Assembly: GCF_000512895.1 (NCBI RefSeq)
Contig: NZ_CP007033.1
Location: 526,001 to 590,000 of the forward strand
Reading direction: 5' to 3'
DNA: 64,000 bases
Source of the DNA: Dehalobacter restrictus DSM 9455
GTDB lineage: Bacteria > Bacillota > Desulfitobacteriia > Desulfitobacteriales > Syntrophobotulaceae
This document shows, in pieces, positions 46,994 to 63,341 of this stretch. A program made the translations under genes and the position numbers. Positions within the stretch are counted from its first letter, which is position 1; every line of letters starts with the position of its first letter. The notes below the pieces were generated by a model. The model made no database searches, had not been told where the DNA came from, and saw only the letters and a list, made by a program, of their open reading frames with translations.

Positions 46994-47025
46994 ATTTTAA
47001 TTTGGATATCCAATCTAATATTTTT
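46989..47025 (+). terminator. Probable terminator at the rsfS end
   Basis: ATTAGATT / AATCTAAT enclose an inner TTGGATATCCAA palindrome and are followed by ATTTTT. The stem overlaps the rsfS stop codon. Confidence 0.55.
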
Positions 47026-47026
47026 A

Positions 47027-47230
47027 CGCTTTGAAGGAAAGCAGTACCTGAAAGGGATGGATCAGAGAGACGGCGGTTGGTGTGAGCCGTTTTCACCAGG
47101 CGGGGAACTCGTTCCTGAGCAGTGTCCGGGCAGCAACGGATGCCGGTGAGAACCGTTATAATCTTTAAGCGCACAGAATTAGGGTGGTACCGCGGGAGCA
47201 AACTCTCGTCCCTTGGGGATGGGGGTTTTT
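47027..47230 (+). promoter_or_regulatory. T-box leader of leuS
   Basis: Stem I features are AGTACCTG, AGAGAG, TTGGTGTGAGCC and a specifier region GGAACTCGTTCCTGAG, where CTC (47108-47110) is a leucine codon. The T-box sequence AGGGTGGTACCGCG is at 47181-47194, then a terminator ending GGATGGGGGTTTTT. Uncharged tRNA-Leu should pair with it, form the antiterminator and allow leuS transcription. Confidence 0.92.
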
Positions 47231-57827: not shown

Positions 57828-58041
57828 ACAGTCACCCCCTTCGAAACATCTAACTACCGCACGTTTTTTAGACAAAAGTTATTTTATCATATTTTAGCAA
57901 GACTATGCAACTAAATTCTAAAAAAAGAATACCTTGCCTTTACTATTGCCATGTCAATCCTAAATCTTATACCATCCTGAAATATATTTTTACTTTTACT
58001 ATAGTGATACAGAACAAATATATTTCTAATGATATTTCTAA

Positions 58042-58071
58042 TTGACGAATCTCAAAGCCCTGTGATAATAT
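58042..58071 (+). promoter_or_regulatory. Promoter of the liv operon T-box leader
   Basis: TTGACG (58042-58047) with GATAAT (58064-58069, 16-bp spacer) or TAATAT (58066-58071, 18-bp). It places the transcript start near 58078, just before the T-box RNA. Confidence 0.65.
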
Positions 58072-58077
58072 AGATTC

Positions 58078-58381
58078 AAATCAACACCATTATTGTATAA
58101 AAGTAATGATGGGGTAAAGTAAACGGTATGAGCTTTCCAGGGAGGAAACGTCTTAGACTGAAAGCGTTTCTATCGCATTGATCGTTGAAGGTTCACCCCT
58201 GAACTTCCGGACTGAAACCTTTGGGTAAGTAGGTCTGGACGGAGGCTCCCGCCGTTAAAAGGGAGGGGGTATAAGGAAGAATAAAGTCCTGTACCTATTG
58301 AAAAGTGGGGTCTGCTTAGACCCAAATAGGGTGGTACCGCGAAGCACTTTCGTCCCTTCAGGGATGAGAAGTGCTTTTTTA
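58078..58381 (+). promoter_or_regulatory. T-box leader of the branched-chain amino acid transporter operon
   Basis: A full-length T-box of about 300 nt: stem I material, the conserved end TTTGGGTAAGTAGG...GGACGG...CCGTTAAA, then AGGGTGGTACCGCG (58328-58341) and a terminator AAGCACTT/AAGTGCTTTTTT (58342-58381). A likely specifier is CTT (58204-58206) in GAACTTCC, a leucine codon, matching the GAA-CTC layout of leuS; this reading is tentative. Uncharged tRNA would switch the transporter on. Confidence 0.88.
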
Positions 58382-58388
58382 ATTGGCT

Positions 58389-58441
58389 GCAAGGAGCGGC
58401 TAGCAAGGCCACGGATGGCCACGGACCACACTAAGTTTCAG
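58389..58441 (+). repeat. Dispersed intergenic repeat between the two T-boxes
   Basis: GCAAGGAGCGG (58389-58399) is identical to 46024-46034. It is followed by GGCCACGGATGGCCACGG, a palindromic ATGG-type core. Confidence 0.5.
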
Positions 58442-58557
58442 TAGGGAAAGATTTCTTTATTCGTACTCTTAAGAGAGGGTTGGAGTGATCCAGCTAACTG
58501 GGGTGGTACCGCGGAAGGCCACAGCTTTCGTCCCGGCGAAGGCTGTGGCTTGTTATT
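58441..58557 (+). promoter_or_regulatory. Second, shortened T-box before livJ
   Basis: GGGGTGGTACCGCGG (58500-58514) and a terminator GCCACAGC...GCTGTGGC plus TTGTTATTTT (58518-58557) form a complete antiterminator/terminator. Upstream, only about 60 nt could belong to stem I: GTAC (58463-58466), AGAGAG (58472-58477) and GGAGTG (58482-58487) resemble the 5' half. No specifier half is visible. Confidence 0.75.
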
Positions 58558-58596
58558 TTCTGGTGTATCAGAAAAATATGAATGTAGGAGTGAAGG

Positions 58597-59790
58597 ATGA
58601 TGAAAAGAAAGTTCAAAGGTTTCACAGGGAGTATGGTAGTAGCTTTATTATTGGCGGTCAGCCTGATATTGGGGGGGTGCAGCTCCGGGAAAAGCAGTAA
58701 GGCAGGCAGTGAGACAGCAGAACCTTACAAAGTGGGTGCGGTTCTCGATATCAGCGGGACTTCCTCTTCTTTGGGCACACCTGAACGCGATACGCTGCTA
58801 ATGATGGTGGACAAAATCAATGCCGAAGGCGGTATTCAAGGCCATCCGATTGAACTGATCATTGAGGATAATAAAAGTGATGAGATGGAGGCTGTACTTG
58901 CTGCAAATAAGCTAATAGAAAAAGGCGTCCTTGCAGTTTTGGGCGGCAGCTCCAGCGGGACCTCGATGGCCATCATGAAAACTGTCCAGGACGCGCAAAT
59001 TCCGATGATTTCTCTGGCAGCAGCCAGCAGCATAGTTGAGCCGGCGGCTGAAAGACAATGGGTATTTAAAACAGCCCAGAGCGATATCGTCATGATCAAT
59101 AAAATCATTGAATATCTCAAGAAGAATAACATGACGAAGATTGCCTTTATGTATATGAACAATGCTTATGGCGACAATGGCAAGAAAGCCATCAGCGCAG
59201 CAGCTCCCCAAAATGGGATCACCATCGTCGCCGAAGAAAAATTTGATGCGACAGACAATGATATGACACCGCAATTAACGAATGTTAAGAGCAGCGGGGC
59301 TCAGGCAGTCGTCGTATGGGCGATTCCGCCTTCGGCCTCCATCCTGACGAAGAACTATAAGGATCTTGGACTGACGATTCCGCTCATTCACAGCCATGGC
59401 GTCGGCAATCAGAAATTTATTGAACTTGCCCAGGACGCCGCTGACGGAGTGATCCTTCCAATCGGCAAGCTTCCAGTGACCGATCAGATTGCGGATTCTG
59501 ATCCGCAGAAAGCAGTGCTTACAAGTTATATCAATGATTACCAAAACAAATACAATACCGCGCCCAATTCATTCGGCGGTTATGCGGCAGATGCTTTAAG
59601 TCTCCTGGTCAAGGCGATCGAAAAAGCTGGTCCGGATCGCAGCGTCATTCGGAATGAACTGGAAAAAACGCAGGGACTTGTCGGTGTATCCGGGGTATTT
59701 AATATGTCCGAACAGGATCATAATGGCTTAAGCGAAGATTCCGCCGTTTTGGTGCAGATCGAAGACGGCAAATGGAAAATATTACAGTAA
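58597..59790 (+). CDS. livJ: Branched-chain amino acid ABC transporter, substrate-binding lipoprotein
   Basis: The 397-residue protein captures the amino acid outside the membrane. It has a lipoprotein signal with lipobox LILGGC, then the periplasmic-binding type I fold of LivJ (KVGAVLDISGTSSSLGTPERDTLLM, GIQGHPIELIIEDNKSDEMEAVLAANKLI, VLGGSSSGTSMAI). Leucine-type specificity is supported by the T-box control and the complete livJHMGF order, but related binders take other amides or amino acids. Start 58597 (ATG-ATG). Confidence 0.92.
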   Translation: MMKRKFKGFTGSMVVALLLAVSLILGGCSSGKSSKAGSETAEPYKVGAVLDISGTSSSLGTPERDTLLMMVDKINAEGGIQGHPIELIIEDNKSDEMEAVLAANKLIEKGVLAVLGGSSSGTSMAIMKTVQDAQIPMISLAAASSIVEPAAERQWVFKTAQSDIVMINKIIEYLKKNNMTKIAFMYMNNAYGDNGKKAISAAAPQNGITIVAEEKFDATDNDMTPQLTNVKSSGAQAVVVWAIPPSASILTKNYKDLGLTIPLIHSHGVGNQKFIELAQDAADGVILPIGKLPVTDQIADSDPQKAVLTSYINDYQNKYNTAPNSFGGYAADALSLLVKAIEKAGPDRSVIRNELEKTQGLVGVSGVFNMSEQDHNGLSEDSAVLVQIEDGKWKILQ

Positions 59791-59824: not shown

Positions 59825-60700
59825 ATGGGAGAACAACTACTGCAGCTATTATTCAGCGGGCTTACGCTTGGAAGTATTTATTCTATTATTGCCCTTATCC
59901 TGGTCATTACCTATAAAGTAACAGGCATATTAAATCTAGCCCTTGGGGAATTCCTGGTTATCGGGGCACTTTTGACGGTTAGTTTCAAATCGATGGGGAT
60001 GCCGCTAATAGCGGCCTCCCTTCTTGCCATCATTATTGTCGCCTTGTTGGCGGGGGTACTCGAAAGGCTGACGGTCAACAAAGCCAGGGGAGCCAGCAGC
60101 CTGACGATGCTGATCATTACAATTGGTATTTCGATATCCTTAAGGGGACTGGCCCTTCTGATCTGGGGAACGGATACCTACTCTCTGCCCTCCTTTACGG
60201 CTAGTGGACCAATCATGGCAGGCGGGGCGGCACTCAATCCTCAGAGTATCTGGGTATTTTTGCTGGCAGCGGCAACACTGATCTGTGTCAACACTTTTTT
60301 TGGACGGACGTACTGGGGAAAAGCAGTTAAAGCTTCCGTCCTCAGTCCCATCGGAGCCCAGCTGCAGGGGATCAATCTGAGTACGATTTCCCTAGCCGCA
60401 TTTGTTTTTTCAGGGGCTTTGGCTACCGCCGCAGGAATCTGCATTGGACCGGTGACGATGGTCACGTATGATATGGGTTTTATGTTAGGCGTCAAAGGTT
60501 TTATCGCGGCAACAATTGGCGGATTGGGCAGTATATCCGGAGCTGTTCTGGGGGGATTAATCCTGGGGCTTTTGGAAGCCTACAGTTCAGGACTGATTTC
60601 CTCCGGGTTGAATGATGCGATCTCTATTGTGATTCTTCTTGCAGTCCTTTTAATCAGGCCGGAAGGGATCCTGGGTGCAATCAGCGAGCGTAAAATTTAA
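59825..60700 (+). CDS. livH: Branched-chain amino acid ABC transporter permease LivH
   Basis: The 291-residue inner-membrane permease has about eight helices and the LivH start LFSGLTLGSIYSIIALILVITYKVTGILNLALGEF. The conserved GVKGFIAATIGGLGSISGAVLGGLILG loop contacts the ATPases. It follows livJ by 34 bp within one operon; the gap repeats the words AAATTACAGTAACG from the livJ end. Confidence 0.93.
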   Translation: MGEQLLQLLFSGLTLGSIYSIIALILVITYKVTGILNLALGEFLVIGALLTVSFKSMGMPLIAASLLAIIIVALLAGVLERLTVNKARGASSLTMLIITIGISISLRGLALLIWGTDTYSLPSFTASGPIMAGGAALNPQSIWVFLLAAATLICVNTFFGRTYWGKAVKASVLSPIGAQLQGINLSTISLAAFVFSGALATAAGICIGPVTMVTYDMGFMLGVKGFIAATIGGLGSISGAVLGGLILGLLEAYSSGLISSGLNDAISIVILLAVLLIRPEGILGAISERKI

Positions 60701-60785
60701 TCTTAAAACAGGGTTTCCTTTTGGTATAGATTTGATTTCTTTTGAGTAAGATTTACAGCGTCATATGGTAAGGAGCGTATCTTTG

Positions 60786-61781
60786 GTGAAAAAGATTATA
60801 TTTAAATTCAGCGGAGCTGTCATCATGCTGGTATTGTTGATTATCCCGCTCCTGCTTAACAGCAATTATCTTTATGGATCACTGATTGTTATCGGCCTGT
60901 ATGCGATCGTTGTCCAGGGCTTGGGAATGCTGATGGGTTATGCGGGGCAGGTGTCGTTCGGTCATGCGGCGTTTTTTGGTTTAGGCGCTTATACGGCCGC
61001 GATATTAACCACGCGTTTTCATTGGCCGTCACTGTTAGCCCTTCTGGCAGCAATTCTTCTTCCCGGAATTGTTGCGGCCCTAATTGGCCGACAGACCCTT
61101 AAGTTACGCGAGCTATACCTTGCCCTCGCGACGCTCGGCTTTGGGATTTTAGTCCATATATTATTTACCGAAGGCGGAGAAATAACCGGAGGGCCATCCG
61201 GGATCAGCGGTATTCCGCATCTGGGCATTGGCAGTCTTATTTTAAACAGTGACAGGAAATTTTATATCCTGATCTGGATCATTCTGGTCCTGATACTGCT
61301 GGGAATACGAAATTTAGTCCGTTCCAGAACAGGCAGGGCCTTATGTGCGATCCGAGAGAGTGAGTATGCGGCAGAAAATGCCGGTATTGACTGTATTAGG
61401 CTTAAGCTGCAGGCCTTTATTTTCAGTGCGCTGCTTACGGGTTTGGCAGGGGGCCTTTATGCTTTTTATGTGACCTTTATCAGTCCGTCACCATTTACTT
61501 TTCATGCTTCCGTCCAGTTTGTACTGATGGCAGTGATTGGCGGCCTGGGTACCTTTTGGGGGCCTTTGCTTGGGGCTGTGGTCGTCGTGGCCTTAAACGA
61601 GATCTTAAAAGAGTTGATACCGCTCATCGTTCCCGGAGCCGGCGGTGAATACCAGATCATTATTTACGGAATCATCCTGGTTGCACTCATGATATACCGT
61701 CCGCAGGGGTTAAGCAGTATCGGGGAATTCTTTCAAAGTTCAAAAAAGAGTCTGGTTCAAGATGGAAATGAAGTCAATTAA
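60786..61781 (+). CDS. livM: Branched-chain amino acid ABC transporter permease LivM
   Basis: The 331-residue second permease has about nine helices and LivM signatures LGMLMGYAGQVSFGHAAFFGLGAYTAAIL and FVLMAVIGGLGTFWGPLLGAVVV. I start at GTG 60786, with AAGGAG about 10 nt upstream; TTG 60783 is equally possible, while the ATG at 60765 precedes the ribosome site. It pairs with LivH to form the channel. Confidence 0.92.
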   Translation: MKKIIFKFSGAVIMLVLLIIPLLLNSNYLYGSLIVIGLYAIVVQGLGMLMGYAGQVSFGHAAFFGLGAYTAAILTTRFHWPSLLALLAAILLPGIVAALIGRQTLKLRELYLALATLGFGILVHILFTEGGEITGGPSGISGIPHLGIGSLILNSDRKFYILIWIILVLILLGIRNLVRSRTGRALCAIRESEYAAENAGIDCIRLKLQAFIFSALLTGLAGGLYAFYVTFISPSPFTFHASVQFVLMAVIGGLGTFWGPLLGAVVVVALNEILKELIPLIVPGAGGEYQIIIYGIILVALMIYRPQGLSSIGEFFQSSKKSLVQDGNEVN

Positions 61782-61861
61782 CCTATATACAGAACGATGA
61801 TTCAAATATGAAATAAGAATTATAGATTGAGTATCAATCCTATAGAAGGAGGGAAAAGGCC

Positions 61862-62629
61862 ATGCTTCTGGAGTTACACAGAATTACAAAACATTTTGGC
61901 GGCATTATGGCTGTCAAACATGTGTGCTTTGGGGTTGAAGAAGCAAAAATTACAGCGCTTATAGGACCTAACGGGGCAGGAAAAACGACGATTTTTAACT
62001 TGATTACCGGAACGTATCAACCGGATGAAGGTGAAGTGTTATTGGAAGGAAAAACGATCACTGGAATGAAGCCGTATAAGACAGCTCAGGCTGGAGTAAC
62101 CAGAACTTTTCAGAACCTGCAGCTTTTCGGCAGCATGACCGTGCTGGAAAATGTTATGACTGGTGCTTACCTGCAGGGGAAAAAGGGCTTTGTCAAGTCG
62201 TTTCTTTCTTCCCCTGAACGGTCTACCGAAGAAAAAAAAATCAGGGCTGAATCCCTGAAACTGCTTGAAGAGGTTGGTTTAGCGGAGTCAGCTGGTTTGC
62301 CGGCAGCAGTTTTGCCGTTCGGACAGCAAAGACTGTTGGAAATTGCCAGAGCCCTTGCTTCTCAGCCCAAACTGATCCTGCTTGATGAACCGGCTGCAGG
62401 ATTAAATGCTGCTGAATCTGAAATCCTGACAGAATATTTGAAAAAACTTCGCAGTCAGGGTATGACCATGATAATGATTGAACATGATATGGAAACGGTC
62501 ATGGAAGCTGCTGATGAGATTGTTGTCCTAAATTTCGGGGAGGTGATCACCCAGGGAACCCCGGCAGAAATTCAGGCTCACCCGGAAGTGATCAAAGCCT
62601 ATCTCGGAGAGGATGAGCAAATTGCTTAG
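61862..62629 (+). CDS. livG: Branched-chain amino acid ABC transporter ATPase LivG
   Basis: The 255-residue ATPase has Walker A GPNGAGKTT, the LivG-type QLFGSMTVLENVM region, the signature LPFGQQRLLEIARALA, Walker B LILLDEPAAGLN and the switch His in MIEHDMETVM. The signature motif reads FGQQR where LSGGQ is canonical, normal for LivG. GAAGGAGGG precedes ATG 61862. Its end overlaps livF by 17 bp. Confidence 0.94.
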   Translation: MLLELHRITKHFGGIMAVKHVCFGVEEAKITALIGPNGAGKTTIFNLITGTYQPDEGEVLLEGKTITGMKPYKTAQAGVTRTFQNLQLFGSMTVLENVMTGAYLQGKKGFVKSFLSSPERSTEEKKIRAESLKLLEEVGLAESAGLPAAVLPFGQQRLLEIARALASQPKLILLDEPAAGLNAAESEILTEYLKKLRSQGMTMIMIEHDMETVMEAADEIVVLNFGEVITQGTPAEIQAHPEVIKAYLGEDEQIA

Positions 62630-63341
62630 TGTAAATGGTCTCGATGTTTATCATGGCTATGTGCATGCGCTCAAAAATGTATCCCTGAATGTCAGGCAGG
62701 GAGAATTGCTGGCGGTTCTTGGAGCCAATGGTGCAGGCAAAAGTACCCTGCTAGGGACTCTCGCGGGGTTATACAAGCCTGCTGCAGGAGAAATCATTTT
62801 TCAGAACAAAAAAATAGCCGGCCAGTCACCGGAAAAAATCGTCAGAGCCGGTATTGCTCTTATACCGGAGAAAAGAGAGATATTCAGCGGGCTAAGCGTG
62901 ATGGATAACCTGATGATGGGGGCTTTTCACCGTTATCGTCAGGACAAGGCGGATATCCCAAACGATGTGGAGGAAGTCTTGGAATTATTCCCTCTGCTGC
63001 AGGGAAGAGAAAAGGATTTGGCCGGTTCTTTAAGCGGTGGTCTACAGCAGATGCTGGCAATAGGCAGGGCCCTTATGGCCAGGCCCTCACTGCTGCTGCT
63101 CGACGAACCTTCCATCGGGCTGGCCCCGCTTGTCGTACGCGAGATCATGGCGATCCTGGTCGGGATGAAAGAGTCCGGCGTCACAGTCGTACTGGTCGAA
63201 CAAAATACAAAAGCCGCCTTGAGAGTGGCGGACAGTGTACTCGTCATGGAGCGGGGTAAAATTGTTCACCACGGAAGCTCCAAAGAAGCAATCTCGGATT
63301 CTCTGCTTCAGGAAGCTTATCTGGGCCGGACCCGGATGTGA
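62613..63341 (+). CDS. livF: Branched-chain amino acid ABC transporter ATPase LivF
   Basis: The 242-residue ATPase has Walker A GANGAGKST, the LivF-type LIPEKREIFSGLSVMDNLMMGAF, signature LSGGLQQMLAIGRALM, Walker B LLLLDEPSIGLAP and VVLVEQN. The canonical LSGGxQ is present here as LSGGLQQ. ATG 62613 lies inside livG, with GGAGAGG upstream, so the two ATPases are made together. It completes livJHMGF. Confidence 0.94.
   Translation: MSKLLSVNGLDVYHGYVHALKNVSLNVRQGELLAVLGANGAGKSTLLGTLAGLYKPAAGEIIFQNKKIAGQSPEKIVRAGIALIPEKREIFSGLSVMDNLMMGAFHRYRQDKADIPNDVEEVLELFPLLQGREKDLAGSLSGGLQQMLAIGRALMARPSLLLLDEPSIGLAPLVVREIMAILVGMKESGVTVVLVEQNTKAALRVADSVLVMERGKIVHHGSSKEAISDSLLQEAYLGRTRM

Follow-up and report, generated by a model that had tools for sequence, protein, structure and literature searches.

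The leader studied here raises the question of what a T-box unit can do when it lacks the half that chooses the tRNA, and which tRNA, if any, it would then respond to. The locus lies in Dehalobacter restrictus DSM 9455, within a window of 64,000 nucleotides that was analysed as a whole (bases 526001-590000 of a single-contig genome of 2,943,336 bp). Two T-box units with their terminators stand in series before genes that resemble livJHMGF, and we refer to them as unit 1 and unit 2. A first-pass annotation, made from the sequence of the window, had described this arrangement and offered more than one idea of what unit 2 might be. We examined the anatomy of both units, the specifier, the conservation of the leader in related genomes and the readings that would explain a second unit of this kind.

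As the first-pass annotation had it, a full T-box and its terminator come first. Unit 1 passes the gathering cut-off of Rfam RF00230 over the full model (122.6 against 93 bits, at 58097-58360) and extends over 58097-58380 when the T run of its terminator is included. Between the IIA/B pseudoknot and stem III it carries a linker hairpin, the arms of which contain GGUAU and GUACC. The features of the leader and the operon are collected in Table 1. According to Rfam the window holds 2 T-boxes above the cut-off, namely unit 1 and the leuS leader at 47022-47216. The leuS T-box is complete (109.6 bits), has the Leu specifier CUC and is single, with no second unit.

The ligands suggested earlier were tRNA-Leu, tRNA-Ile or tRNA-Val, but the register of the specifier gives a different result. 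In the reference T-boxes that we read in the same genome, the specifier is followed by one base, mostly a purine, and then by the lower stem (ileS AUC-A, thrS ACC-G, leuS CUC-G, serC UCC-A and pheS UUC-A). From this pattern of specifier plus base, the register of the leader is GAAGG-UUC-A and the codon is therefore that of Phe, which rules out Leu, Ile and Val. A Val reading in the -1 frame (GUU) was also considered and rejected, as it breaks both the pattern of a specifier plus purine before the lower stem and the C rule. UUC fits tRNA-Phe(GAA), which is encoded by two genes in the genome, with A73 and an ACCA end that matches UGGU; several tRNAs of this genome end in ACCA, and tRNA-Ser has G73. 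The distal stem I of unit 1 resembles that of the pheS T-box (L011). This canonical Phe T-box of the same genome also shares UUC followed by A, the distal stem I AGGGAGG...ACTGAAAG and UGGUACC with our leader, but has a single discriminator and no second unit. Judged by its specifier register, the leader T-box is specific for Phe and not for Leu, Ile or Val.

The operon labelled 'livJHMGF' is re-assigned to phenylalanine control by this result. A Phe T-box suggests that the transporter takes up Phe or aromatic amino acids. The best NCBIfam match of the binding protein is the high-affinity branched-chain binding protein subfamily (NF011933), and with 89.9 bits against a cut-off of 477 the protein falls outside this subfamily. 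Because the binding protein is only distantly LivJ-like and the specifier is that of Phe, the transporter would be better named a hydrophobic amino-acid importer under Phe control.

Table 1. Features of the doubled leader and of the operon behind it (positions in the window).
Feature	Position	Strand	Basis
Putative promoter-like site, TTGACG-16-GATAAT, TG before second hexamer	58042..58069	+	consensus scan, 10/12 matches
Unit 1, complete T-box leader (stems I, II, IIA/B, III, antiterminator)	58097..58360	+	Rfam RF00230, 122.6 bits, model 1-219
Specifier UUC (Phe), inside GAAGG-UUC-A	58192..58194	+	register set by ileS, leuS, thrS, serC and pheS T-boxes of the same genome
Linker hairpin, unit 1, GGUAU-AA-GGA...UCC-U-GUACC	58268..58295	+	found in surveyed Phe units of such kind
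Stem III, unit 1 (GGGTCT/AGACCC)	58308..58323	+	cmscan alignment
T-box bulge UGGUACC, unit 1	58332..58338	+	
Terminator with T run, unit 1	58341..58380	+	sequence; fold -25.1 kcal/mol against antiterminator -4.7
Variable spacer with dispersed repeat GGCCACGGATGGCC (58407-58420)	58381..58455	+	repeat copies; 49-57% alike to more distant genomes
GUAC motif, unit 2 (3' arm of linker hairpin; 5' arm in unit 1 only)	58463..58466	+	comparison of tandem loci
Purine string GAGAG, stem III GGTTGGA/GTGA/TCCAGCT, then AA, unit 2	58473..58497	+	RRRxG, helix and AA in 44/44 loci; covariation
Unit 2 antiterminator: A1 GGG/CCC, bulge UGGUACC (58504-58510), A2 GCGGAAG/CUUUCGU, G-U closing pair	58501..58534	+	fold, comparison
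Unit 2 terminator GGCCACAGCTTTCG..CGAAGGCTGTGGC, T-rich tail	58517..58561	+	terminator scan, 16 pairs; -28.8 kcal/mol
livJ-like substrate-binding lipoprotein	58597..59790	+	best NCBIfam match NF011933, high-affinity branched-chain binding protein subfamily, 89.9 against cut-off 477 bits
livH, livM, livG, livF-like permease and ATPase genes (regulated operon)	59825..63341	+	ORFs, NCBIfam

Unit 2 begins after the spacer and contains the second TGGTACCGCG that had been noticed in the first pass, together with the terminator claimed for it. The copy is exact and lies at 58504-58513; beyond unit 1, the sole other exact copy in the window belongs to the leuS T-box (47185). A terminator scan places a strong stem-loop at 58516-58551 with a T-rich tail after it. 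In a permissive covariance scan of 57880-58620 (741 nt), a weak T-box match was obtained at 58379-58538 with 32.2 bits, so that unit 2 alone falls below the RF00230 cut-off of 93. This match omits most of stem I, with 82 model positions not shown and only 28 bases filling them, and it is the only one of such a partial kind among 12 T-box matches genome-wide. It agrees with the earlier description of a second unit that lacks the specifier half and retains the part that reads the tRNA end. The first-pass annotation had also named a complete stem I, found by covariance search, as evidence against its description, and we looked for such a hidden element: the permissive cmscan of 57880-58620 gave neither a complete stem I nor a specifier in unit 2.

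What remains at 58463-58561, where stems I and II are absent, is a complete discriminator and terminator. The published definition of a T-box discriminator comprises an RRRxG string, stem III and AA, and an antiterminator whose 7-nt bulge reads UGGNACC and whose A2 is closed by a G-U pair (PMC7583486), and every one of these parts is found in unit 2. The RRRxG purine string is GAGAG at 58473-58477, and in stem III GGAGTG (58482-58487) covers the 5' strand together with the loop. GTAC at 58463-58466 is a linker motif that precedes stem III in unit 1 as well. In the first pass GTAC, AGAGAG and GGAGTG had been interpreted as the first half of a stem I; they are instead this linker motif, the purine string and part of a covarying stem III. 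Both units have alternative folds, the antiterminator of unit 2 having -8.4 and its terminator -28.8 kcal/mol, and likewise -4.7 and -25.1 kcal/mol in unit 1. By its anatomy unit 2 is a complete T-box discriminator, for which sensing of the tRNA end is predicted.

T-boxes with duplicated terminator-antiterminator elements were reportedly first described by Vitreschak et al. in 2008. Partially tandem T-boxes are by now a recognised class, the mode of action of which was stated to be unknown in a 2020 review (PMC7583486). Our leader is of this kind: one complete T-box is followed by a second antiterminator and terminator without stem I, in front of the same gene and in the leader of an amino-acid operon. 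Fully tandem T-boxes, known from trp, thrS and ilv leaders, resemble it in having two T-box terminators in series in one leader, but there each unit has complete sensor and regulatory domains (PMC12452182), whereas unit 2 here lacks stems I and II and a second complete stem I with specifier is absent from the leader. To a class that is already known, the leader adds the Phe assignment for a transporter, the discriminator anatomy in 44 loci, the conservation, the agreement of UGGN between units (Phe, Ser and Trp) and natural deletions in which discriminator 1 is lost. The Phe assignment, anatomy, conservation and deletions make the mode of action testable, as the leader and its relatives form a compact system that combines a single specifier and a defined tRNA with an intact discriminator in unit 2, which has no stem I itself, and that includes natural variants without discriminator 1.

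The taxonomic distribution of the doubled layout is broader than one locus. It is found upstream of livJ in 7 genomes from two genera, where the other livJ orthologues with both units belong to four other species of the genus and to two genomes of another genus in the same family. In another family of the same order unit 1 alone precedes livJ. About 37 more loci have the doubled layout before DAHP-synthase genes (aroF, pheA region), in most genomes of that other family and elsewhere. An RF00230 census overlooks weak second units (for example in the g12 aroF loci) and yields lower bounds only. Most aroF loci were retrieved by a DNA search with the unit 2 core, so that their bulge and core are in part bound to look conserved. 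Neither the specifier nor the purine string belonged to this query, and the matches mostly started downstream of stem III. All 44 tandem loci have UUC as the specifier of unit 1, with the T-box cores 116-280 nt apart, and all 44 have RRRxG, stem III and AA in unit 2, with the end of the helix always exactly 6 nt upstream of the T box. UGGU(A/C)C and the A2 G-U pair of unit 2 are present in nearly all of them (G-U in 41/44). A GUAC motif slightly upstream of stem III is kept in nearly all second units (as GUAC, GUGC, GCAC or AUAC), although its hairpin partner is found in unit 1 only.

Stem III of unit 2 shows covariation. In 6 liv sequences 100% of the cells are paired, with double changes in 3 of the 7 pairs, and the score is reached by 2 of 500 shuffles, while slid controls are far lower. 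Between this genome and G003, G015 and G005, the 51-nt antiterminator and terminator region of unit 2 shows identities of 100, 98 and 96%, respectively. In the same comparison the equivalent of unit 1 reaches 75-80%, the spacer 49-57% and the third codon positions of livJ 45-48%. The antiterminator and terminator of unit 2 are the best conserved DNA of the leader, and the terminator stem-loop is identical in 6 of 7 genomes. By sequence comparison, unit 2 is under purifying selection. For positions 58500-58550 we additionally observe that an identity of 96-100% across genomes exceeds what pairing alone would require.

The spacer between the units is variable. A dispersed repeat had been claimed to lie here, and this was borne out: the 14-bp hairpin repeat GGCCACGGATGGCC has 11 further exact copies in the genome among the matches listed, where about 0.02 would be expected for a 14-mer in 2.9 Mb. 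In G015 (L026) the spacer is filled with similar GC-rich hairpin repeats. Two further candidates were dropped. The minimum-energy fold has GGACCACAC (from about 58423) paired to the T box of unit 2, but the pairing sequence is absent in the more distant genomes G003, G015 and G005 and the pairing was treated as chance. A CCA in the A2 hairpin loop of unit 2, considered as an internal tRNA mimic, is not kept in other lineages.

Sequence and comparison provide the anatomy of the leader, its Phe specifier, the conservation and covariation, the intact antiterminator and terminator alternatives, the UGGN agreement and the natural loss of discriminator 1. The reading that we prefer, with a probability of roughly two in three, is a partially tandem (doubled-discriminator), Phe-specific transcriptional T-box over a hydrophobic amino-acid ABC importer, in which one stem I serves both discriminators in series and the same tRNA is checked twice. 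The stem I of unit 1 would capture tRNA-Phe through its GAA anticodon. An uncharged tRNA would stabilise antiterminator 1 through its ACCA end, and RNA polymerase would pass terminator 1. About 172 nt further on the polymerase would reach the second complete discriminator and terminator, which is without a stem I. The tRNA on the single upstream stem I would most likely offer its uncharged ACCA end once more, this time to UGGU in discriminator 2, while discriminator 1 and the spacer would form a loop. Readthrough would need two serial readings of an uncharged end, which amounts to an AND gate on one tRNA and could both tighten the off state and steepen the response. A counterpoint to a shared tRNA is that the complex of antiterminator 1 with the tRNA end may be too stable for a hand-over, so that discriminator 2 would require another tRNA molecule.

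Which tRNA unit 2 reads is best approached through loci that differ from ours. Other partially tandem T-boxes (L119 and L120 in G027, L121 in G042, L163 in G029) are Trp-specific before the trp operon and Ser-specific before serC (three genomes), and have UGGC in both units; no obvious stem III is seen in the Ser-type second units. The variable base of UGGN agrees between the units, being U/U in the Phe loci and C/C in the Ser loci (3 loci: G027, G042 and G029) and the Trp locus (1 locus: G027). UGGU is the commonest T-box sequence, so the agreement is weak for Phe alone and its weight comes from Ser and Trp. These two contribute only four loci from a small number of genomes, and descent through duplication could account for part of the agreement. 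The aroF leaders of G038 (L070) and G047 (L091) have lost discriminator 1, and in them a UUC stem I is kept with the second discriminator only. Both discriminators are retained in the congeners G060 (L077) and G042 (L098). From these two losses it follows that the stem I of unit 1 can evidently serve the second discriminator.

These observations bear on the idea, raised in the first pass, that control by unit 2 is codon-blind. Discriminator 2 alone would then bind the 3' end of any uncharged A73 tRNA, and the Phe-specific input would be followed by one for general starvation. The premise of this idea stands, as unit 2 is a complete discriminator that has the tRNA-end part and no stem I or II of its own, and its UGGU would suit many tRNAs, several of which end in ACCA here. 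The conclusion drawn from it appears improbable to us, given that a complete UUC unit lies upstream in 44 of 44 surveyed loci, that the UGGN of unit 2 tracks the amino acid of unit 1, and that two lineages dropped discriminator 1 yet kept its stem I with unit 2. The sole two lone second units seen (L122 and L124) look like relics. In single-molecule work no tRNA binding was detected for the isolated antiterminator, in a construct without stem III, and the dwell time on stem I alone was short (PMC5951919). A further reading takes unit 2 as a backstop: a second, leaky terminator whose antiterminator is vestigial and which only lowers basal expression, having lost tRNA sensing. The strength of its terminator (-28.8 kcal/mol) would suit this role, and the lack of an obvious stem III in Ser-type second units suggests that sensing may have been lost in some lineages. 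However, a plain terminator has no need of RRRxG, stem III, AA and UGGU(A/C)C, which are kept in the Phe loci (the first three in all 44), and with a covarying stem III and an intact antiterminator we give this reading little credence. Least probable by far is that unit 2 is a decaying duplicate of a full T-box whose stem I was lost here, as had also been suggested. The variable and repeat-rich sequence between the units would fit such a history, but the unit without stem I recurs in about 37 aroF loci and in every one of the seven liv loci that have a second unit, and it is under strong selection. Relatives with two full T-boxes, of which our leader would be a locally deleted form, had been named in the first pass as evidence against a half unit; at the livJ locus they were found in no relative examined. 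A covarying stem III and a 51-nt region with 96-100% identity, against about 47% at livJ third positions, rule decay out.

There is also a more detailed form of the preferred reading, in which an exchange of strands would let one transcript check the same tRNA two times. The GUAC 3' arm of unit 2 would pair with the 5' arm of unit 1, the repeated 3' arm taking the place of the first one on the only 5' arm, and stems I and II would thereby be re-attached to discriminator 2. We regard this version as tentative and on balance rather unlikely. It is consistent with most loci keeping only the 3' arm in unit 2. The altered arm UUCGAUACU of G027 still pairs with GGUAUUGGA, and the remaining hairpin of G047 appears to join a 5' arm of unit-1 type with a 3' arm of unit-2 type. 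For 12 of the 40 distinct loci the duplex between the arms is better than shuffles at p<0.05, and the median p is 0.16, but the loci are related and the p-values are not independent. Moreover, the arms of one genome pair only slightly better with each other than with the arms of other genomes (-9.3 vs -8.6 kcal/mol), GCAC in G064, G045 and G078 breaks the core pair, several g12 loci pair poorly, and a small local hairpin is possible in some unit 2 linkers. If true, the strand exchange would constitute a proofreading or time-filter RNA switch, and the literature that we examined contains no such switch.

Second units can also occur alone. Relic-like lone second units or recombined fragments were seen at L122 (G042), L124 (G027) and L103 (G053); the lone second units, L122 and L124, come from two genomes and lie near second or truncated aroF copies. 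At L123 (G042) a T-box core GGGTGGTACCACG with CTCGTCCC lies directly before ileS without a recognised stem I, and might be a truncated Ile T-box.
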